Assembly (NCBI GenBank): GCA_011392765.1
Contig: WYCW01000005.1
Location: 62,001 to 126,000 of the forward strand
Source of the DNA: Candidatus Thiosymbion ectosymbiont of Catanema sp. Cochon2018
GTDB taxonomy: Bacteria > Pseudomonadota > Gammaproteobacteria > Chromatiales > Chromatiaceae
DNA: 64,000 nt
Direction of reading: 5' to 3'
Position numbers and translations under genes: made by a program. The notes below the pieces were generated by a model. That model worked only from the letters and a program-made list of their open reading frames with translations, was not told the DNA's origin and did not search any database. Shown here piece by piece: positions 8,043 through 57,386 of this stretch; within the stretch, counting starts at the first letter, position 1, and each line of letters starts with the position of its first letter.

Positions 8043-10841
8043 TCACCGAGTCGGATGGCGTTGTCGGTACGCCTCCAGGATCAGGTCTGCGATCTCTGCT
8101 GCGGATCGGCCCTTCGGCTTGATTCCAAAGCTCACGGCCGGCCAGCCCGGGATCTCGGTGTCGTCGAGGTGAACAGGGATGACAGCGTCGTCTGCGCGGC
8201 GGTCGAGCAGGATACCGCGGATCGTTTCCCACTCCAGCAAGGGCCAGGATTTGGTGTAGTGCTCGGAAAAGAATGGAATGACCAGTTCGGCCTGCTGGTA
8301 GAAGCCCTGGAGCTTCAGGTCGCCGCTGTTGCCGAGTAACCGGGCTTCGTACCACTCGTCGTAAAACACGCGGTCGCGTCCAAGGGCTTTTGCGAGACGC
8401 TCGACGATTTTGAGAACAAACGGCCGATCCTCGCCGGGAAACGAAACGGCGATCGCAAACGATTCGTCAAGGTCAGTCGGTTCTTGGGCCCACTCCGGCC
8501 ACCGCTCCAGCTTCAGCCCGTCGAGCAGTTCCAGCACACTGACGTCGGCGTAGTCGGGCGGCTTGGGGCACTCGATCGTCGGCTTGCGTCGATGCTTGCG
8601 GTCGATCAATTCCTTCTGCTCGAATATCGCTGGCTCTTTCAGGTTGGCACAGGTGTCGCAGATGCACGGCACCCACTTGCCGACTTTGTCCTTGAGTCCC
8701 TGGAAGCTGTCGTTCAGGGCGTCCAGGTCGCCGGCGATGACACTCAGCAGCGCCTGCTGTTCCGGGCCACGGCTGCGGAGCGCGATTTCGTTGCCCCGCG
8801 CGGTCGTCTCCACCAGCACTTGTGTGCCATCGTGCTCGAACAGCGCCCCGGACGACCAGCACAGGTCCGGCTGCTCCACGAAACGGTGCATCCGCACAAT
8901 CAGCCGGCTCACCAGGCCCTTGGGCAGGAACTCGTAGCGGTAGGTCAGCACCAGGTCACCGGGCCTGGCCCAGTCGCTCAGTGCCGGCGGCTTCGACGGC
9001 GAGAGGTGTTGGGGAACCAACCAGGTCTCCTTATCCGTATCCGGCAGCCGATAACAGAGCTCGAACCGGACCATCAGGGCACGCAGTTCTATGTCCTTGT
9101 CCACAAAACCCCGGTCGGACCACAGGTAGTCGCAGTCGGCCAGCGTGAACCGGCCTTTTCGCGCCTTCACCCCTTCATCGTCCAGGATGCGGAACACCGC
9201 GTCCGTCACCCACTGGTTCTGCAGAAACACCGTGCGACGCAGCTCCGGCGGATGCTGGAAGTGTAGGAACACGCCCAAGTCGTGCAGATATTGGCTCAAG
9301 TGCAGCGCCTTGTCGCGGTCCGGTTCGAGATGACGCTCGTAGACCGCGAAGTACTGGTCCAGCGGGATGTGTGGCCGGGTCCGCGCCAAGTCTTCCAAAT
9401 CCCTGCGAATCGCGACCCACTTGGCCGGCACGTCCTCGCCGATGTGCGGCAACCGCTGGGCGAAGTGTTCCACCGCCTGGCGCAGGCTGTCTGCGGCGCC
9501 CGGATGTTCCAGGTTGCCCCGATGGAACACCTGCACATTGGGAAACCGTCCTTTAATGCCCGCCTCGTCGATCGGCTTGCTCCGTCCTCCTTTCTCGTTC
9601 TGAAAGATCAGCAGCGGGCTGCGTTCGCTGAGCGTCTCGACCACCTCCAGCCAGAACTTAAAACCCTCGTCATGGATGGATTTGTGATCGCTGCGGGTGT
9701 CGTCGACCAGCACGTACAGGGAACGTTTTGTGAGAAAGAACTGGTGGGTGGCGTGATAGATCTGCTGGCCGCCGAAATCCCAGCTATTGAGCCGGAAGCT
9801 GCGTCCACCGGAGATCGGGAAGTCATATCGGTGGATGTGGATGCCGCGGGTGGTCTCGTCTTCGGTGGGCAGGTCCAGTTCGGGCCGAAACATACGGCGC
9901 AGCAGGCTGGTCTTTCCGGATCCGCCCTCGCCGACGATCAGCAGTTTGGCTTCAAACAGCCGATCCACGCCCTGGGCTTCGATTTCCCGGAAGTAGTTGC
10001 GCACCGCCTCCGGCCCTTGCTGAACCACTTCCGGGGACGGATGCGTCAGCGGACAGTCCTCCACATAGATGCCCGGTCCTGACGAGTACTTCCATTCGAC
10101 CGGCAGGCCGGCCAGGACCAATGACTTCAAGGGCGACAGATCCGTCACCCCGGTCTCCGCGATGTCCAGCGTCGAAAGCGGCAGCTGCGCCAGCGGAGCG
10201 ACCGTCGTGACCCGCTTGTTGGATCTAAGATAAAGAGTGACTAGCCCCGTCAGGTGTTGGCCGATGGCCGCGACGGCTTCGTCGCCCACCTCGTTGTAGC
10301 CCAGATAGAGCGAGGTGAGCTGGCCGAGATGCTCGGCGACAGCCCGGGCGCCGGCATCGCCCACTCCGTTGAGGTCCAGATGGAGCGAGGTGAGCTGGCC
10401 GAGATACTCGGCGATTGCCCGGGCACCGACATCGCCCACTTGGTTCCCCCACAGATAAAGCGTTGTGAGCTGGCTAAGGTGCTCCGCGATCGCCCGGGTG
10501 CCGGCATCGCCTACCCCGTTGTTCCTCAGATGGAGCGAGGTGAGCTGGCCGAGATACTCGGCGATGGCGGCGGCGTCCTCGTCCCGCAGGTCGAGCGACC
10601 GGAGTGTGAGGGTTTGCAGCCGGTCGAGTCGCAACAACTCGCGGGGCAGCCCGGACAGTTCGCCCGTCAGTCGATACACGACCCGGTCCTGAAGTTTCTT
10701 CGGCCAGTCGTCCGGCGATACGGACAGCAGGACCTTTGATCCGATCAGAGCCAGGTCGGTCGTCCGGCCGTCGTCGAGCCGTGTCAGCAGGTCCGGCAAC
10801 TCGTCCGGAGCAATGCGCCGCAACGTCGTTTCCTTCGTCAT
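8043..10841 (-). CDS. ROCO-family protein: LRR - Roc GTPase - COR - TIR
   Basis: 932 aa; LRR repeats LGQLTSLHLxxNGVGDAG; P-loop GEGGSGKTS and DFGGQ; COR region; C-terminal TIR FAIAVSFPGEDRPFV...VFYDEWYE...SWPLLEWE. Confidence 0.9.
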   Translation of the reverse strand: MTKETTLRRIAPDELPDLLTRLDDGRTTDLALIGSKVLLSVSPDDWPKKLQDRVVYRLTGELSGLPRELLRLDRLQTLTLRSLDLRDEDAAAIAEYLGQLTSLHLRNNGVGDAGTRAIAEHLSQLTTLYLWGNQVGDVGARAIAEYLGQLTSLHLDLNGVGDAGARAVAEHLGQLTSLYLGYNEVGDEAVAAIGQHLTGLVTLYLRSNKRVTTVAPLAQLPLSTLDIAETGVTDLSPLKSLVLAGLPVEWKYSSGPGIYVEDCPLTHPSPEVVQQGPEAVRNYFREIEAQGVDRLFEAKLLIVGEGGSGKTSLLRRMFRPELDLPTEDETTRGIHIHRYDFPISGGRSFRLNSWDFGGQQIYHATHQFFLTKRSLYVLVDDTRSDHKSIHDEGFKFWLEVVETLSERSPLLIFQNEKGGRSKPIDEAGIKGRFPNVQVFHRGNLEHPGAADSLRQAVEHFAQRLPHIGEDVPAKWVAIRRDLEDLARTRPHIPLDQYFAVYERHLEPDRDKALHLSQYLHDLGVFLHFQHPPELRRTVFLQNQWVTDAVFRILDDEGVKARKGRFTLADCDYLWSDRGFVDKDIELRALMVRFELCYRLPDTDKETWLVPQHLSPSKPPALSDWARPGDLVLTYRYEFLPKGLVSRLIVRMHRFVEQPDLCWSSGALFEHDGTQVLVETTARGNEIALRSRGPEQQALLSVIAGDLDALNDSFQGLKDKVGKWVPCICDTCANLKEPAIFEQKELIDRKHRRKPTIECPKPPDYADVSVLELLDGLKLERWPEWAQEPTDLDESFAIAVSFPGEDRPFVLKIVERLAKALGRDRVFYDEWYEARLLGNSGDLKLQGFYQQAELVIPFFSEHYTKSWPLLEWETIRGILLDRRADDAVIPVHLDDTEIPGWPAVSFGIKPKGRSAAEIADLILEAYRQRHPTR

Positions 10842-12117: not shown

Positions 12118-12369
12118 ATGTCACTGAACATAAAGAGTGCGGAGGCCGACCGCCTTGTGGAGGCCTTGTCCAACCTTACCGGTGAAAGCAAGACAAAAGC
12201 GGTTATCGAGGCTGTGCGCGAGCGTCTCGTGCGCACAAGCAGGGAGCGGAATCGGAACATGCTCGCGGCTGACTTGCTCGCGATCGGGAAGAGATGTGCC
12301 GCATATGGCCGACGGGATAACACCGAGCACGGCGAGCTGCTCTATGACGAGCGTGGTCTCCCCCGATGA
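12118..12369 (+). CDS. VapB/PSK-type antitoxin; cognate vapC reduced to its first codons
   Basis: MSLNIKSAEADRLVEALSNLTGESKTKAVIEAVRERL; overlapping ATGATCATCGACACC (MIIDT) then loses toxin similarity. Confidence 0.7.
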   Translation: MSLNIKSAEADRLVEALSNLTGESKTKAVIEAVRERLVRTSRERNRNMLAADLLAIGKRCAAYGRRDNTEHGELLYDERGLPR

Positions 12370-12421
12370 TCATCGACACCTTTTGCCTTCCCCACAATGG
12401 CCGCAAACCCGATCGCTTTCT

Positions 12422-12716
12422 CTACTCCGTATATGGATCGACTACTTCGTCAAGCAAGCGTCGCCGAAGACCCGCGTCCATCCTTGGTGAAATACCTCTT
12501 CCCTCCCGCCTGGAGGCGTATGCAAGACAGGCGTTGATGTCTGCTGGTCCAGCCCCGATATCGTCGAGGATCGACTCGCAGGACTCGCCTTGCGCCAAGA
12601 GGCTCAATACCAATTCCGACCGAAATACGCAGATCGCGACCATTTCGGCTTGCCGCCGAATACGCTCGGCGGCCGGTGATGCGTTTCAACAAATCGTCTT
12701 GGTTCATGATCATCAA
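12422..12716 (-). pseudogene. Frameshifted DUF433-like antitoxin remnant
   Basis: DDLLKRIT...RDLRISV in one frame continues as ELVLSLLAQGESCESILDD...INACLAYAS in another. Confidence 0.5.
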
Positions 12717-13263
12717 AGGGCACCTTGAAAATACAGTTTTCGTAAGTTAGATGCTTGAATAATCAATGGGTTAGAGTCGTCAAGTGGCGAAAAACTATTT
12801 TTCAAAGTGCCCTAAACCCGTTGGCCGGTTTCTGTCTCGCCCAGGTTGCTCCGATGATACGCTAGCCGCATCTCGAAGGGAGCTCGCAGCCATGGTCTGC
12901 TCCCTAACTTTCAACGACTAAGTTCACAGGCGTCCTCGTGCCTCACTGCCGCTATCTGAATTCCGACTGACCGGGTGCGCGAGAACGACGATCCAATATT
13001 CGCCGAATGGCCTCATGACGCCGTTTTCGGTACTGGCGTCACTGCCTCCCGGATCAGGTCGGTGATGATCGTGTTCTTGTCCTGTTCGGCAAACGTGGCA
13101 TTGGGACAGCGCCTTACCTCATCGGGGACGGTAAAATGGACGGCGGACAGCAGCTCCTAGCATAATTGCGCACTGGGGACGGTTGACGCGCCGGAGGTTC
13201 GTTTGCCCCCGCTTTTCATGGTTTTCCGGTTCCGACAATCCCTGTCAAACTGCGGGCATTGTC

Positions 13264-14451
13264 CTAACTTAATGGCATTGGTGTGAGGGTCGGGAGCTTT
13301 CGTAACGGCAGCACGGACAGCCGTTCATCCAGCTCGTAAGCGTCGCTTCCGGGGTAGAGCACCCAAAGGTGCTCCAACCGAAGATCCTGCAAAGCGATGC
13401 GCATCGAGCGATTGGGGCCCGGCGCATCGGCCGTCTTGAATTCGAAACCGTAACGTTTTCCCCGGATGGTAATCATCAAGTCCAGTTCGGCGCCGCCGTG
13501 GGTCGCCCAGAAGCAAGCCTCGCGTCGTTGAAAGGTGGTCAGCACCTGTTCAAGGGCAAATCCCTCCCAAGAGGACCCGAGCTTCGGATGTGACAGAAGG
13601 TCATCGCCGCTCTCCAGCTCCAGCAGAGCGTGCAAAACACCCGAATCGCGCACATAGACCTTCGGCGCTTTGACCTGTCGTTTGGAAAGATTCTCGAACC
13701 AGGGCGGAAGGACCCGGACCAGGTAGGCCCCCGAGAGGATGTCCAGATAGCGACGGGTGGTGGTCTCACCGGTACCCAACGACCGGGCAAGCTCGGCTGC
13801 GTTCCAGATCTGCCCGTGATAATGGGCGATCATGGTCCAGCAGCGGCGCAGGGTCTCAGCGGGGATCGAGATACCCAGTTGCGGAATGTCGCGCTCCAGC
13901 AGGGTCCGCAGGAAATCCCGACGCCAACCGAAGGAGGCCGCGTCGTCAGGGGCCAGAAAGGACCGTGGGAATCCGCCTCTGAGCCAGAGTCTGTCCTGGC
14001 TCCCCGCGCCGGTTTCGCGTAGATCGAATCCTCCCAGGTCCAGGAAGCCGACCCGACCTGCCAGGGATTCGGAAACCCCCTTGACGAGGCCGGGCGAGGC
14101 GCTGCCGAGGATCAGGAAACGGGTGGTGGCTTCGGGGCGGTCGATCAGAACCCGCAGTATTTCGAACAGCTCCGGGCGACGCTGGATCTCGTCGATGACC
14201 ACAAGACCCGAGAGTGCTCCCAGGTTGCGCATAGGGGCGGACAACCGGCGTACGTCGACAGGGGACTCCAGGTCGAAGATGGTGCAGGCAGGCTCTTCGG
14301 ACGCGATTACGCGCGCCAACGTGGTCTTCCCGCACTGGCGCGGACCCAGGATCGCCACGCAGGGGTGAGTGCGAAAAAGGTCTCGAACACGCTCGACGGC
14401 CTGGGGACGATCAATCATGAGGACACTATAATCCTTGTAAATCCTCCTCAC
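13264..14451 (-). CDS. ATP-binding protein of the DUF4143/AAA_14 type
   Basis: GPRQCGKTTLARVIA, LSGLVVIDEIQRRPELFEILR, and C-terminal nuclease-like GAELDLMITIRGKRYGFEFKTADAP. Confidence 0.85.
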   Translation of the reverse strand: MRRIYKDYSVLMIDRPQAVERVRDLFRTHPCVAILGPRQCGKTTLARVIASEEPACTIFDLESPVDVRRLSAPMRNLGALSGLVVIDEIQRRPELFEILRVLIDRPEATTRFLILGSASPGLVKGVSESLAGRVGFLDLGGFDLRETGAGSQDRLWLRGGFPRSFLAPDDAASFGWRRDFLRTLLERDIPQLGISIPAETLRRCWTMIAHYHGQIWNAAELARSLGTGETTTRRYLDILSGAYLVRVLPPWFENLSKRQVKAPKVYVRDSGVLHALLELESGDDLLSHPKLGSSWEGFALEQVLTTFQRREACFWATHGGAELDLMITIRGKRYGFEFKTADAPGPNRSMRIALQDLRLEHLWVLYPGSDAYELDERLSVLPLRKLPTLTPMPLS

Positions 14452-14726
14452 AATGATGGATTTTCAAGGTTTATGCGAACCCGGCTTCGAGTCGGCCTCC
14501 GAAGAGTCTTGATCGCACCGTCGCAGGCGCGGAGCGAGAAACCTAAGCCGATCCAATCCCAATATTTCCAGCGGAACCGGAAGACGCTGTCAGCCGACCT
14601 GCTCGCGATCGGGAAGAGATGCACCGCACATGGCCGTCGGGATGACACCGAGCACGGCGAGCTGCTCTATGACGAGCGTGGTCTCCCCCGATAATCATCG
14701 ACACCTTTGTTCGTGAAAACCCGGAA

Positions 14727-15896
14727 CTACACCACCCCCCCTTCGCCAAGCACCTCTTCGATAATTTCGTTCTCATCCAGAAACTCGATGGAGACAGGGC
14801 CTTCTGCCGGGTCGTGCCCAACGAGACGGGCCTCTTCGATTACCTGCTGCATGGTTGTCACGATCTTGCGCGGCGTGATTTCCGTGAGTTGCGAGGCAAT
14901 GGCCTCGATAGCGGCTTCCTCGAACGGGAAGAAATCGACCTCCCCCTCGGGATCGGCTCGATTGCTGTTCAGAATCTCCCGCACGAAACTCACTGTGTCA
15001 TCCTTGTCGAAGCCGACCAGCTCGATTTGGCGATGAATGTGGCTGAGGACATAGTCGAAAAATAGCACTGCCAGCTGCGAAATCTCCGCTGACAACGCAA
15101 TCACCATGCAGAAGCAATTCGGGCAGTTGTCGTAGATGTGCCGAAGGATGTCGTTGACTTCTCGCGCTTCCTTTACGCTGGCTCGCTCCAGATCGTCCAG
15201 TTCGTCGATGAAGAGATATGCTCCCTTTCTGAAACGCCGCGTGTCAGTCGCAGAAACCTGAAGCTCGTACACGAACAGGTTCACAAGCCGGGTAAAGATC
15301 ATCATCGCTTGATAATCTGTCAGCCCCTTCGGCGCGAGTAGCTTACGGAAATCATCATCTTGTTGGCAGCGATTGATCTCCTTGGCAAAGTTGTTCAGTT
15401 CCACCGGCGGGATGAGTTCCTCGATAATCTTCTCAGGCGGAATATCATGACCATATCCGTTCGCTTCGCGGAAAGCTGATATGCATTCCACCAGGAAATT
15501 GTGGAAGGCTTGTACATCAGCCAGCAAGTTCGATTTGGCGACGATGTCGTCGCGAAATGCGCCCGCGAAGGTTAGTGCGCCCTTGTCCTTACGCAGCGTC
15601 GGGATGAAGTAACATACCGCATTGAAGGTATCTTTTTCTTCATACAGAATCCTGTTCTGTGCCCAGAGAAGCGCATGCGATTTCCCTGTCCCATAGTTAC
15701 CGTAGAACATGAGAAAGTTCGCGTTGCCTACTTGATCGGCTAGAGAGCGATTCAGATACTTATTCAGCTGGTTCTTTTGCTTCTCATATCCGGCCCATAT
15801 GCTCGCGCGTGGATCAGCGGCAAAGTTCGGGTTTGACCGGAACGGATTATCCCGCAGGTTGGCCCTTCTGTAGTACTCTTTCGGCTCCATCACCAT
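14727..15896 (-). CDS. AAA/ORC-like P-loop ATPase
   Basis: Walker A FYGNYGTGKSHALLWA; Walker B YLFIDELDDLE; overlaps the end of the upstream PLD gene by a few nt. Confidence 0.75.
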   Translation of the reverse strand: MVMEPKEYYRRANLRDNPFRSNPNFAADPRASIWAGYEKQKNQLNKYLNRSLADQVGNANFLMFYGNYGTGKSHALLWAQNRILYEEKDTFNAVCYFIPTLRKDKGALTFAGAFRDDIVAKSNLLADVQAFHNFLVECISAFREANGYGHDIPPEKIIEELIPPVELNNFAKEINRCQQDDDFRKLLAPKGLTDYQAMMIFTRLVNLFVYELQVSATDTRRFRKGAYLFIDELDDLERASVKEAREVNDILRHIYDNCPNCFCMVIALSAEISQLAVLFFDYVLSHIHRQIELVGFDKDDTVSFVREILNSNRADPEGEVDFFPFEEAAIEAIASQLTEITPRKIVTTMQQVIEEARLVGHDPAEGPVSIEFLDENEIIEEVLGEGGVV

Positions 15897-16837
15897 TTTT
15901 CATTCTCCAGTTGTTGCCATCGCCCACGCGCAAGAAATCTGCGTACATCGGGCAGCTCATAGCCACGCAGCATCAACTCGGTTATGTAGCTTTCGACGTA
16001 GCCGATCTCATCTTCCGGAAGTGCGTAGCAAAGCTCTTCGTTATAGCGCTCTGTCTCCAGAGCCATTCCCGCGGATATGAGATTCGCCGAACCTATAAGG
16101 ATCAACGACGAATACCGATCTCCGCCGCGCAATCCCGGCTCATAGCGACGGGCTTCATCGAAGATAAAGCAGTACAGCTTAGTATGTAGCCGCGGGTAGA
16201 CGAAGATACCTACCTTTCGCTCTGCAAGCCTTTCCATCCATTCGATCTCCGCATTTTTCGGAGGCGCAGTAATTATCACAACACTTGCCCCGTCTTCGAC
16301 TTGATCGAGCAGTAGCTTTCCAAAGGCCGCCGTAGGGGCGAATAGATCGCCATTGATGAACGGTGCAACCAGCCAAATATCCTTGTGGGGCAGATTTCGC
16401 CGCGAGAAGATTTCACGCCTGATCTGGGGACTCGGCACATTGCGTTTGAACCGGTTTACCGGCCGCGCAGACCGGTCTTCACGTGCGGACATCGCGGCGA
16501 CCGCTGCCGCTACTTCTGATCCTGTTTCCGAAATAGGGATAGCCGCTTCCACGGTTCCGGGGGCCGGATCGACGAGCCGATCCTCCACGCTGTGCTCTCC
16601 AGCGCGGAAGAGATAAATATTCTCACCGGAGCGCAAATAGATCACGCGATAGGCGGTACGCTTTCGGCTCACATAGCGTATCCAAGCGCCTCGGATCCCC
16701 TCGTAGCGATGGTCATCACTGTCGGCCCGGAAGCTTCCATCCGGGTGCAGCGTCTTCTGGAGGGCGCGGCGCGCGAAGTGCGCGTCTGCGTGGTCCTGAA
16801 GATCGGCGATGAAGTCAGGGAGCAAGAAGACCGGCAT
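15890..16837 (-). CDS. RelE-like domain fused to a phospholipase-D-like domain
   Basis: N-terminal RKRTAYRVIYLRSGENIYLFRAGEHSVEDRL resembles RelE/ParE folds; C-terminal RLHTKLYCFIFDE + LILIGSANLISAGM (HxKx4D, GSAN). Confidence 0.75.
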   Translation of the reverse strand: MPVFLLPDFIADLQDHADAHFARRALQKTLHPDGSFRADSDDHRYEGIRGAWIRYVSRKRTAYRVIYLRSGENIYLFRAGEHSVEDRLVDPAPGTVEAAIPISETGSEVAAAVAAMSAREDRSARPVNRFKRNVPSPQIRREIFSRRNLPHKDIWLVAPFINGDLFAPTAAFGKLLLDQVEDGASVVIITAPPKNAEIEWMERLAERKVGIFVYPRLHTKLYCFIFDEARRYEPGLRGGDRYSSLILIGSANLISAGMALETERYNEELCYALPEDEIGYVESYITELMLRGYELPDVRRFLARGRWQQLENEKW

Positions 16838-16838
16838 T

Positions 16839-17365
16839 TTATCTCTTCACGCTGAGGGCGCCGCTGGTGTTCCTAGACCACCGGAATGCAAGCCTACGCT
16901 TCTCACCTTTCTGCTCTTCTGCGATGGCTGCAGGCAGCTTGAGCACCGGTTTATCCGTAGCGCAGGCGCACGCAACTGCAGCCGGGTAGGCAACCGTGAT
17001 GGGCAACTCACGGCGAAGCATGGCTTTGCGCACATGCAGTCCGCGAAAAACCACCATCATCTCGCTAATGAGGGCGATTGCTGCGTCCGTGTCCGCGTCG
17101 TCCTTGACCCTGATTCCAGCATAAGCACCGCCAAAATCAATCAGGCATTCCCAGAAACCTTTCGTTTTGTCACCCAGTAAGTCTGGCCGGAATCCGGATC
17201 GCACCAGCTCGTAGTCCATAGGCCAAAACGTAAAAAGCCCTTTCGTATTGATGTATCCCGTTTCGGTGAGCGCATCAATGAAGTCCCTGCCGCGCTGCGT
17301 CAGGCCGGTGTCATCATCCGGGACCTGACATATTTCTGTCTCGCCCAGGTTGCTCCGATGATACG
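16839..17365 (-). CDS. First gene of the PLD/ATPase operon, unknown function; 5' end split by a MITE
   Basis: ORF 16839-17219 extends in frame upstream as ...LAYHRSNLGETEICQVPDDDTGLTQRGRDFIDALTETGYINTKGLFTFWPMDYELV to the MITE boundary. Confidence 0.55.
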
Positions 17366-17541
17366 CTAGGGGGCGTTCTCAATTAATAAATCATCTAAGT
17401 GTTGTAGGCTGGGTGGCAAGGAACGAAACCCAGCTTTTCCGATCCGCAATACCCTGTGCCGGGTTTGGCCGTCCCTGGCCGTAACCCAGCCTACGGGCTT
17501 GATTTTTATGATGATTTGGCTCAATTGAGAACGCCCCCTAG
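17366..17541. repeat. MITE family B, ctagggggcgttctcaatt...gagaacgccccctag
   Basis: Related copies at 42422-42720 and 57107-57280; MITE-free paralogous site at 12831-12916. Confidence 0.85.
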
Positions 17542-18318: not shown

Positions 18319-18660
18319 GGCTCTTTATGGATTCCGGACTGCTGACGATCATGGAAGGGCACCACCGGACACTTTGGCGTGCGGCGGCGACTTTACCCCG
18401 ACACCGGAAGGAACCCGCGGTGCTTGGTGTAACCAAGGTATCGGTCAGGTAGTACAAGCCTGCCGCCGCTTTGGATTGGGCACGGCATCTATTCCCGGCA
18501 CCGGCGTTACGACCAGGGGAAAGCGCCGTCGCCGCGGCGTGTGGTGAACCCGGCGCTCGGATTTCCGGCACCGGCTGCCGGGAACCCTCGTCGCTCAGGT
18601 TCGATGTGCCGCGCCGCTTTGCCGGCGCACTCCAAAACAATCCGGAATCCATAAAGAGCC
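18319..18660. repeat. MITE family A (342 bp) with 8-bp target duplication TTTACGAT
   Basis: Termini ggctctttatggattccggactg / aatccggaatccataaagagcc; TTTACGAT at 18311-18318 and 18661-18668. Confidence 0.9.
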
Positions 18661-18733
18661 TTTACGATACCCTCGTAGGGTAGAGGGGGCACCCACAAAG
18701 GTGCCCCTGCAAAAAATCGGCTCTCTTACGGAT

Positions 18734-25389: not shown

Positions 25390-25573
25390 TCCTTTTCTTC
25401 CTTTTTAACTAAAATATCACGTTCCGCAGCGCGCAAATCCGTTGCCGCCATTTCACTAAGTATCGGTTCAAAAGACAGATTGCACGTCTTAGCGATGATT
25501 GATATGCGTTACAGCCAGCGGTGAGGGATATTTGTTCACGTTATTTTTGAACCGATATTAACCAATTCCGCGA

Positions 25574-25913
25574 GGCTCTTTATGGATTCCGGACTGTTTT
25601 GGAGTGCGCCGGCAAAGCGGCGCGGTCAAATCGAACCTCCGCAACGGGGGCTTCCGGCAGCGTTTGCCGGAAACCTGGGCATCGGGTTCCACACCCGTCG
25701 CGGCGACGGCGCTTTCCCCTGGCCGCAATGCCCTGGGTTGCAACGAATACTTCGCCAAATCCAAAGCGGCGGCGGGCCGGTAGCCCATAGCAGCACCTTG
25801 GTTACACGGATCCCGCGGACTTCCGTCGATGCGGGAGTCAAGGCTGCCGCCGCACTCCAAAATGTCCGGTGTATCCTGCCTGATCGTGAGCAGTCCGGAA
25901 TCCATAAAGGGCC
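25574..25913. repeat. MITE family A, opposite orientation; no matching target duplication
   Basis: ggctctttatggattccggactg...cagtccggaatccataaagggcc. Confidence 0.85.
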
Positions 25914-37388: not shown

Positions 37389-37729
37389 GGCTCTTTATGG
37401 ATTCCGGACTGCTCACGATCATGGAAGGCACCACCGGACGTTTTGGAGTGCGGCGGCAACCTTGACTCCCGCAGCGACGGAAACCCGCGGTATCTGTGTA
37501 ACCAAGGTGCCGCCATGGGCTACCTGCCCGCCGCCGCTTTGGATTTGGCGATGGATCCGTTCCCAACCAAGGTCTTGCGGCCAGGGAAAAGCGCCGTCGC
37601 CGCGGCGCGTAGGGAACCCGACACCCAGGTTTCCGGCAAACGCCGCTGGGCTTCCCCGTTACTGAGGTTCGATGTGGCCGCGCCGCTTTGCCGGCGCACT
37701 CCAAAACAGTTCGGAATCCATAAAGAGCC
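37389..37729. repeat. MITE family A (341 bp) with 8-bp target duplication AATAGAAA
   Basis: AATAGAAA at 37381-37388 and 37730-37737; termini ggctctttatggattccgg / cggaatccataaagagcc. Confidence 0.9.
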
Positions 37730-42325: not shown

Positions 42326-42425
42326 GTATAAAAGTGTACGTGGAGGGGGGCGGGGATACCAATGCCTTAAAAACCCGGTGCTGCCAGGGGTTCAGCGAAT
42401 TCTGAGGCAAAAGGCGGAGGGCTAG
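42322..42425 (+). pseudogene. 5' remnant of a DUF4276-like gene, frameshifted and cut by a MITE
   Basis: GTG start: VSIKVYVEGGGDTNALKTRCCQGFSEF*; restoring one nt gives ...FSEFLRQKAEG up to the MITE. Confidence 0.55.
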
Positions 42426-42720
42426 GGGGCGTTCTCAATTGAGCCAAATTATCATAAAAATCAAGCCCGTAGGCTGGGTTACGGCCAGGGACGGCCAAAC
42501 CCGGCACACGGTATTGCGGATCGGAAAAGCTGGGTTTCGTTCCTTGCCACCCAGCCTACAACACTTAGATGATTGGTAGTGGTTGAATCCTAAGTGGTGC
42601 GGTTATGCGACTGTTGTTTTCAATTCCAAATCATAGCGGTGGAGGAAAAGAGCCAAGCAGATTTCACCACTTAGGATTTAGCCACTACCAGATGATTTAT
42701 TAATTGAGAACGCCCCCTAG
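42422..42720. repeat. MITE family B, interrupted by MITE C
   Basis: ctagggggcgttctcaattgagcc...taattgagaacgccccctag. Confidence 0.85.
42575..42689. repeat. MITE C (115 bp) with IS1-like ends and 8-bp target duplication AGATGATT
   Basis: ggtagtggttgaatcctaagtggtg...caccacttaggatttagccactacc; AGATGATT at 42567-42574 and 42690-42697. Confidence 0.9.
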
Positions 42721-55241: not shown

Positions 55242-57110
55242 GTGGAGTCGATCCTCAAGGATCATTCCCGGGAAAGCCGGCTTTTTGCCAAGCGAGCTAT
55301 CCTTGCCGGGGTCTTGGTGCTTGCGGCCATGCTTATGGTGACGGCAAGGCTGGTCCAGCTGCAGATCGGCAACTACACACACTTATCCACCCTGTCCCGG
55401 GACAACCAGGTCAAACTCGAGCCCCTTCCCCCCACGCGGGGATTGATTTATGACGCCGCCGGGGTCCTGCTGGCGGACAATCGCCCATCCCTCTCGCTCG
55501 AAATCACCCTCGAGGAGGTCGAGGACCTGGATACCACCATCGACGAGCTCGGGGCTCTCATCGACATCGGGGACAAGGATCTGAAACACTTCGCCCGCAT
55601 GCGCAAGCTGCGGCACCGTTTCGAGGAAATTCCCATCCGTACTGACCTGAATCCGGAAGAGGTGGCCCGGTTTGCCGTCAACCGTCATCGCTTTCCGGGA
55701 GTCGCCGTCCGTGCCCGGCTACTGCGCGCCTATCCGCTCGGTGAGCACACGGCGCATGTGTTGAGCTACGTCGGCAGGATCAACGAGCAGGAGCTCAAGC
55801 GTATCGATGCCTTGAACTACGCCGGAACCAATTACATCGGCAAGGGGGGAGTAGAGAAGGCCCACGAAGACCTGCTGCACGGTACCGTGGGGCACCGACA
55901 GGTAGAAGTGAATGCCAAGGGACATGTGCTGGGGGTGCTGAAGCGGCACCAGCCGCAATCCGGGAAGAGCTTGGAGTTGTACCTGGACATCCGACTGCAG
56001 CAAGACGCATACGCCGCCCTGGGCGACCGCCGCGGCGCCGTGGTGGCAATCGATCCGCGCACCGGCGGCGTACTCGCCCTGGTCAGTCGCCCCAGCTTCG
56101 ATCCCAATCTCTTCGTGGACGGCATCGACGCGGCGGACTACCGAGCCCTGCGCCGCTCGCCCGATAAGCCCCTGTTCAACCGCGCCATCCGCGGTCAATA
56201 CTCGCCGGGATCCACGATCAAACCCTTTATCAGCCTGGGTGGACTGGAGACCGGGACGATACGCGCGACCGACGCCAAGTGGTGTCCTGGTTACTATCGG
56301 CTCCCCGGACATACCCACAAGTACCGATGCTGGAACCGTGGGGGACACGGGACCACCGCCTTGGAGAAGGCCATCGTCCAGTCCTGCGACGTTTATTTTT
56401 ATAAGCTGGCCCAGGGTATGGGGATCGACCGGCTGCACGATTTCCTGGCCGGGTTCGGTTTCGGCAAGCGCACCGGCATCGATGTTACCGGCGAACGCAG
56501 AGGTTTGCTGCCATCCAAAACCTGGAAAAGGAGGGCATACAATCAACCCTGGTTTCCCGGAGAAACCCTTATTGTGGGTATCGGGCAAGGCCCTTTTTTA
56601 ACTACACCGCTACAGCTTGCCGTCGCGACGGCGACTTTGGCGGCGCGCGGCCGTTTCATACGACCTCGTATCGTCCGCGCGACCAAGGCGCAGGGCCCGG
56701 AGGCGAAACATGAATTCCCGGCGCAAATCCGGCAGCTTCCTCTTTCCTCCCGCTACCTCGATAAGGTGATCGAATCCATGGTGAAGGTGGTGAGGAGCAA
56801 CCGCGGTACGGCCAAACGCATCCGCACCAACGCCTACAGTATTGCGGGGAAGACGGGCACCGTCCAGGTCTTCAGCGTGAAGCAGAAGGAACGCTATCGT
56901 GAATCCGAGGTCGCCGAACATATGCGCGACCATGCCCTGTTCGTGGCCTTCGCACCCGTGGAGGACCCCCGCATCGCCGTAGCGGTTATCGTAGAGAATG
57001 GTGGTCACGGGGGCGCGGTGGCGGCACCGGTCGCCCGGCGGGTAATGGACAGCTATTTGTTGCGCACGCCACCTCCCGCGGCGGCGGGGGAAGCGGCAGG
57101 TGGTCACTAG
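55242..57110 (+). CDS. mrdA: Penicillin-binding protein 2
   Basis: 622 aa; RGLIYDAAGVLLADNRPSLSL, SPGSTIKPF, SCDVYFYKLA, AGKTGTVQVFS. Confidence 0.96.
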   Translation: MESILKDHSRESRLFAKRAILAGVLVLAAMLMVTARLVQLQIGNYTHLSTLSRDNQVKLEPLPPTRGLIYDAAGVLLADNRPSLSLEITLEEVEDLDTTIDELGALIDIGDKDLKHFARMRKLRHRFEEIPIRTDLNPEEVARFAVNRHRFPGVAVRARLLRAYPLGEHTAHVLSYVGRINEQELKRIDALNYAGTNYIGKGGVEKAHEDLLHGTVGHRQVEVNAKGHVLGVLKRHQPQSGKSLELYLDIRLQQDAYAALGDRRGAVVAIDPRTGGVLALVSRPSFDPNLFVDGIDAADYRALRRSPDKPLFNRAIRGQYSPGSTIKPFISLGGLETGTIRATDAKWCPGYYRLPGHTHKYRCWNRGGHGTTALEKAIVQSCDVYFYKLAQGMGIDRLHDFLAGFGFGKRTGIDVTGERRGLLPSKTWKRRAYNQPWFPGETLIVGIGQGPFLTTPLQLAVATATLAARGRFIRPRIVRATKAQGPEAKHEFPAQIRQLPLSSRYLDKVIESMVKVVRSNRGTAKRIRTNAYSIAGKTGTVQVFSVKQKERYRESEVAEHMRDHALFVAFAPVEDPRIAVAVIVENGGHGGAVAAPVARRVMDSYLLRTPPPAAAGEAAGGH

Positions 57111-57280
57111 GGGGCGTTCTCAATCAATAAATCATCTAAGTGTTGTAGGCTGGGTTGAGGAACGAAACCCAACTTTTCCGATCCGCAATACCCTGTGCTG
57201 GGTTTCGCCGTCCCTGGCCGTAACCCAGCCTACGGGCTTGATTTTTATGATGATTTGGCTCAGTTGAGAACGCCCCCTAG
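57107..57280. repeat. MITE family B downstream of mrdA
   Basis: ctagggggcgttctcaatcaataaatcatctaagtg...gctcagttgagaacgccccctag; overlaps the mrdA TAG stop. Confidence 0.85.
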
Positions 57281-57386
57281 GGCGTGTTGATATTCGAGTC
57301 CAACTGACTGCATTTTAGAAACAGGGAAAAATGCTTAGCCGCCTTATAATGGCAGGGATATACCAAGTCATAGGAACTCGACCCAA

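Follow-up and report, generated by a model that had tools for sequence, protein, structure and literature searches.

Three tightly packed minus-strand genes in the genome of the Candidatus Thiosymbion ectosymbiont of Catanema sp. raise the question of whether they form a complete defence system of their own, as a preliminary description suggested, or part of a larger unit. They lie at 14727-17324 of the 64,000-nucleotide stretch of DNA that was analysed (the window) and are named here C, D and E after their places in the operon described below:

16839..17324, minus strand: remnant of gene C, the last ~157 of ~397-403 residues, 5′ part lost
15890..16837, minus strand: gene D, 315 aa, predicted RelE-like N-terminal domain and PLD nuclease domain
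14727..15896, minus strand: gene E, 389 aa, predicted ORC/Cdc6-like AAA+ ATPase

The reading frames bear out the described packing of abutting and overlapping genes: the TAA stop of C is followed by 1 base and then by the ATG of D, and the TGA stop of D overlaps the start of E. These frames are not chance, since homologues in three other genera share 74-82% identity with D and E at saturated synonymous divergence. The first gene had been suspected of being damaged and is indeed a 5′-truncated fragment. Its first in-frame ATG lies at 17219 and its stop at 16839 on the minus strand, and it aligns with residues ~240-397 of intact homologues, the first ~240 residues being gone.

A single-protein pattern scan of a genome collection with E as the query returned three close homologues, from Acidithiobacillus sulfuriphilus CJ-2, Stappia sp. 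TSB10P1A and Rhodovulum kholense DSM 19783, at 80-82% identity over the full length. In all three genomes (3/3) E closes a tightly packed run of five genes, and the proteins of the intact operons are:

Protein A, 626-627 aa: GNAT motif and C-terminal ABC ATPase
Protein B, 465 aa: HerA/DUF87 translocase
Protein C, 397-403 aa: no recognised domain
Protein D, 317 aa: RelE-like domain and PLD nuclease
Protein E, 389 aa: ORC/Cdc6-like ATPase

A profile of A uncovered a fourth, highly divergent operon (L008), which has these five genes in unchanged order and adjoins a tyrosine integrase. BLAST identities between L008 and the L003 operon are 29% for A, 37% for B, 26% for E and 32% over the PLD stretch of D; the C genes agree in place and length but show little sequence likeness (22% identity, BLAST E 0.06), and the overall divergence of L008 from the close operons amounts to 22-37% identity. 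In L008, D has no part besides the PLD domain, which makes the RelE-like fusion optional and not a universal feature. Gene order kept through such deep divergence argues for a joint function, on the basis of only four intact operons, three of them closely related. Homologues of the three window genes co-occur in 4/4 operons read, in line with the proposal that they belong together. The idea of a complete three-gene system was nevertheless rejected: five genes recur in the four operons, and the two largest, encoding the GNAT-ABC and HerA proteins, are missing here. Downstream of the L008 operon lies a second, stand-alone HerA/DUF87 gene (L008:16347-17795, minus strand), possibly another defence gene of the same island.

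The operon is rare and moves horizontally. Beyond the carriers on which the searches were centred, only one further carrier (G1033) was found among ~1,400 genomes sampled from the class and phylum of the window and from the orders or class to which Rhodovulum and Stappia belong; E, A or B served in turn as the query. No copy was found in viral contigs, phages or plasmids, with phages scanned for protein A only.

In the window, DNA homology to the intact operons spans only about 14721 to 17319. A genome search of the 5.0-Mb assembly (99.8% complete) found neither A nor B, and profiles of A and B do detect both proteins in genomes carrying homologous operons. The window copy is a truncated remnant, the 3′ end of the operon, from which A, B and all but the last ~40% of C have been lost. 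Without A, B and a whole C, the remaining D and E probably do nothing here as a system. The following elements mark the edges of the remnant:

14570..14708, plus strand: partial VapB-like (PSK_trans_fac) copy at the left edge, 90% identical to 12245-12383
12118-12369, plus strand: VapB-like PSK_trans_fac antitoxin gene, the longer twin of this partial copy
17333..17369, minus strand: 37-bp sequence at the broken 5′ end of C, with an identical twin at 12829-12865 in the window self-comparison
17366..17541, no strand assigned: MITE-like element of 176 bp beside the break, with perfect 19-bp terminal inverted repeats

As both edges match one nearby stretch, about 12245-12914, the operon fragment seems to be set inside a second copy of that toxin-antitoxin neighbourhood. 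The MITE-like element is present in three copies (17366-17541, 57107-57284 and 42419-42574; 95-98% identity), and an apparently empty site for it lies at about 12865. D and E have changed in amino acids no faster than the intact copies, with dS saturated; the gene loss therefore looks recent, or D and E are still constrained. Other observations from the window include a ~340-bp dispersed repeat (18320-18661, 37389-37729 and 25573-25913; copies 78-79% identical), an AAA_14-DUF4143 ATPase gene (13264-14451, minus strand) with a strong match to the PADLOC candidate family PDC-S01 (6.5e-79), and a gene for a 932-aa protein (8043-10841, minus strand) in which leucine-rich repeats, a ROC-type GTPase and a C-terminal TIR-like region were called by eye, in agreement with the ROCO-TIR call of the preliminary description.

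The assignment of the last gene to an ORC-like ATPase stands, with intact Walker A (GNYGTGKSH, 15678-15701) and Walker B (YLFIDELDDLE, 15186-15218) motifs. E gives weak profile matches to AAA_16, BrxC/BrxD and TniB-type proteins, is conserved across operons and is classed, by motif and profile, as an ORC/Cdc6-like AAA+ ATPase. Its nearest plasmid relatives, in haloarchaea, adjoin tRNA-guanine transglycosylase genes. There (L016-L018) three genes recur together, for a tRNA-guanine transglycosylase, for a hypothetical protein of ~295 aa and for an ORC ATPase resembling E; an HNH endonuclease gene sometimes adjoins them. This conserved trio is possibly a small 7-deazaguanine modification-restriction system. 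Elsewhere, a distant E-like ATPase gene (TniB E 1e-5) is preceded by a PIN-like ORF and followed by a DUF4007 gene (5e-78), a neighbourhood that appears Ssp- or capture-like (L002:811-2920).

B belongs to the HerA translocases: it matches Pfam DUF87 at 9e-9, its L008 homologue matches HerA_C, and solved HerA proteins are its only strong PDB profile matches. The nearest plasmid relative of B, in Haloplanus, lies in a locus of BRC-like appearance that also holds a GNAT gene and one for a large BREX-type ATPase. C is fast-evolving, profile searches found no domain in it, and our guess, by analogy, is that it could be a DNA-reading or adaptor protein.

The relatives of A point to phages. BLAST pairs its ABC half with an ABC protein of 212 aa from phages SSU5 and nickie (E ~1e-22). 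Profile comparison pairs its GNAT half with a phage protein of ~295 aa (E 2.3e-7), whose gene sits close downstream of that for the 212-aa ABC protein. A and its phage counterparts have the motifs [FL]HYK, R.VV...RG.G and EI.S.M...F in common; the Pfam GNAT match in A is weak (E 0.005), and the GNAT call rests on motif and phage homology. A thus looks like a fusion of two neighbouring phage-type genes, its linked GNAT and ABC ATPase both being phage-type. A passage of PMC7824862, citing Iyer 2013, predicts that a GNAT coupled to an ABC ATPase acylates a DNA nucleobase. We infer that this predicted DNA-acylating system is the SSU5/nickie pair, and A may by analogy acylate DNA as a putative marker. 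The phage modules (GNAT-ABC(-ParB)) differ from A in that their genes are separate and accompanied by ParB-like genes and a helicase, and the phage stretches read are without HerA-PLD-ORC genes. A match in genome G1391 (L010/L012) proved to be a prophage GNAT-ABC-ParB cassette and is usable as an outgroup. Members of phrog_886 (L011:4880-5770 and L013:4697-5578), labelled ‘ABC transporter ATP-binding subunit’, resemble GNAT acyltransferases, and the label seems wrong.

Protein D of the window comprises two regions:

16574..16837, minus strand: RelE/YoeB/HigB-like domain, residues ~1-88 (AlphaFold and Foldseek)
15968..16420, minus strand: PLD domain, residues ~140-290 (Pfam PLDc_2 and RE_NgoFVII)

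The first ~85 residues take a RelE/YoeB/HigB fold in the model, all top 11 Foldseek hits being such toxins (best probability 0.96, E 0.02); only the N-terminal match was used, from an AlphaFold model of moderate confidence in this region (pLDDT about 60-78). The RelE-like N-terminus of the preliminary description is thus retained as a fold, although Pfam and PDB sequence searches returned no match for it and L008 lacks it, and any ribosome-dependent RNase activity of it is putative. Likewise, the single PLD domain was called correctly, but it is not of the textbook HKD kind and has instead the form H-x-K ... GSxN ... E, with H218, K220, S250, N252 and E267 invariant in five homologues. PLDc_2 is matched at 4e-4 here and at 2e-9 in the divergent homologue. 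The RE_NgoFVII match is weak in the window (E 0.01), and we accept the likeness because it reaches 7e-8 in L008; resemblance to the defence PLDs ZacB, DrmC and DpdK is weaker. These matches suggest a PLD of the restriction-enzyme type that would target and cut DNA.

The defence flavour and operon organisation first ascribed to the locus hold up on follow-up, and the components allow a tentative scheme for the intact operon. We propose, with a little less than even confidence, that it is a modification-restriction defence in which A marks self DNA and B, C, D and E find and cut unmarked DNA. The GNAT-ABC protein A would place an acyl mark on host DNA bases, E together with C would recognise unmarked incoming DNA, B would reel it in as a HerA-type hexameric translocase, and the PLD nuclease D would cut it; where present, the RelE-like domain of D could act as a back-up RNase. 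It is possible, though more doubtful, that the operon represents a new class of restriction-modification in which an acyl self mark, set on DNA by a GNAT-ABC enzyme that phages also carry, is joined to restriction by a HerA-ORC-PLD machine.

The strongest competing explanation, which we consider unlikely, also has the operon defend the cell by targeting DNA, but casts A as a sensor or protein acyltransferase that leaves DNA unmarked. The ABC ATPase would detect DNA structures, the GNAT would acylate a partner or host protein, and invaders would be told apart by the intermediates of their replication, transfer or packaging, in the way suggested for HerA capture. PMC10853773 proposes that HerA/Orc capture systems need no dedicated mark, GNAT domains also act as protein-directed co-effectors in DndF, and the operon has no methyltransferase or other proven marker, nor any known DNA-modifying enzyme besides A. 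Against such a sensor, both halves of A have homologues in a linked pair of phage proteins for which DNA modification has been predicted, and relatives of B and E adjoin modification genes.

We regard it as improbable that the operon chiefly serves mobile elements or acts against competitors, through plasmid or transposon maintenance or the exclusion of rival elements, with translocase and nuclease working in element transfer and not in cell defence. Its patchy spread over distant classes, the integrase adjoining L008, the phage origin of the GNAT-ABC pair and the distantly TniB-like E relative in L002 would suit such a device, but no integrase or transposase was recognised among the ORFs listed within ~6 kb of the three remaining operons, there is no relaxase or replication gene, and the plasmid, phage and viral collections hold no copies. 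Least probable of all, and very improbable, is that D and E still work here as a reduced two-gene system of RelE-PLD nuclease and ATPase: both are full length with intact motifs and unaccelerated amino-acid divergence, yet A, B and C are kept with them in 4/4 operons read, C is without its first ~240 residues, the upstream promoter context has been replaced by rearranged sequence, and the genome search detected neither A nor B.

The correction of the unit matters, as cloning the three window genes alone would mean testing a fragment. With the intact operons, experiments can ask directly how the phage GNAT-ABC pair affects DNA and whether a chemical mark of self is recognised by HerA-type capture machines. 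If the proposal is true, phages with the same GNAT-ABC pair may wear a host-like mark for protection.

The preliminary description did not recognise this exact architecture; among PADLOC and NCBIfam system models none matches the trio or spans the five genes. The PLD/GNAT-ABC version is undescribed in the relevant portions of two recent surveys of related systems, and older literature may already mention the operon. MADS, BREX, BRC, Dpd, Dnd/Ssp and Sir2-HerA were considered for the operon and none matches. For BREX, E scores 11 bits on the BrxD model NF033438, for which the cut-off is 350. Two ATPases are common to the operon and MADS (PADLOC mad1-mad8), one ABC-type (mad3) and one HerA-like (mad8, scoring 61-64 bits with B); the mad3 match is limited to the ABC region of A, and the other mad models match none of the five proteins. 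BRC, as outlined in part of PMC12839542, likewise combines HerA, an ORC-type ATPase and a GNAT, but that outline defines it by PglZ, DUF6079, a STAND NTPase and DUF4007, none of which has a Pfam match in the five proteins of L003 or L008, and the PLD is not part of BRC there. The Dpd 7-deazaguanine systems couple a DNA modification other than methylation to ATPases and a PLD nuclease (DpdK), as proposed here; the operon differs in being without a DpdA/TGT gene, and the match of D to DpdK is marginal (E 0.003-0.03).

The HerA/FtsK capture recipe set out in a section of PMC10853773 (Rakesh, Aravind & Krishnan 2024) offers a further comparison: HerA, Orc/Cdc6, a nuclease and a fast-evolving DNA-binding protein. 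The operon likewise combines a HerA/FtsK translocase (B, absent from the window copy), an Orc/Cdc6-family AAA+ partner (E), a nuclease and a fast-evolving protein in a mobile arrangement. The capture nuclease is an REase whereas that of the operon is a PLD; no REase profile matched any of the five proteins, and no inactive REase insert was recognised in E. The place of the multi-wHTH protein of the capture systems would be taken by C, which is fast-evolving (22%) and without a recognised domain, and the GNAT-ABC protein, constant in 4/4 operons, is extra. Together, A as a putative marker and E, B, C and D in their proposed roles would fit a modification-restriction version of the HerA/FtsK capture model, as that section presents it.
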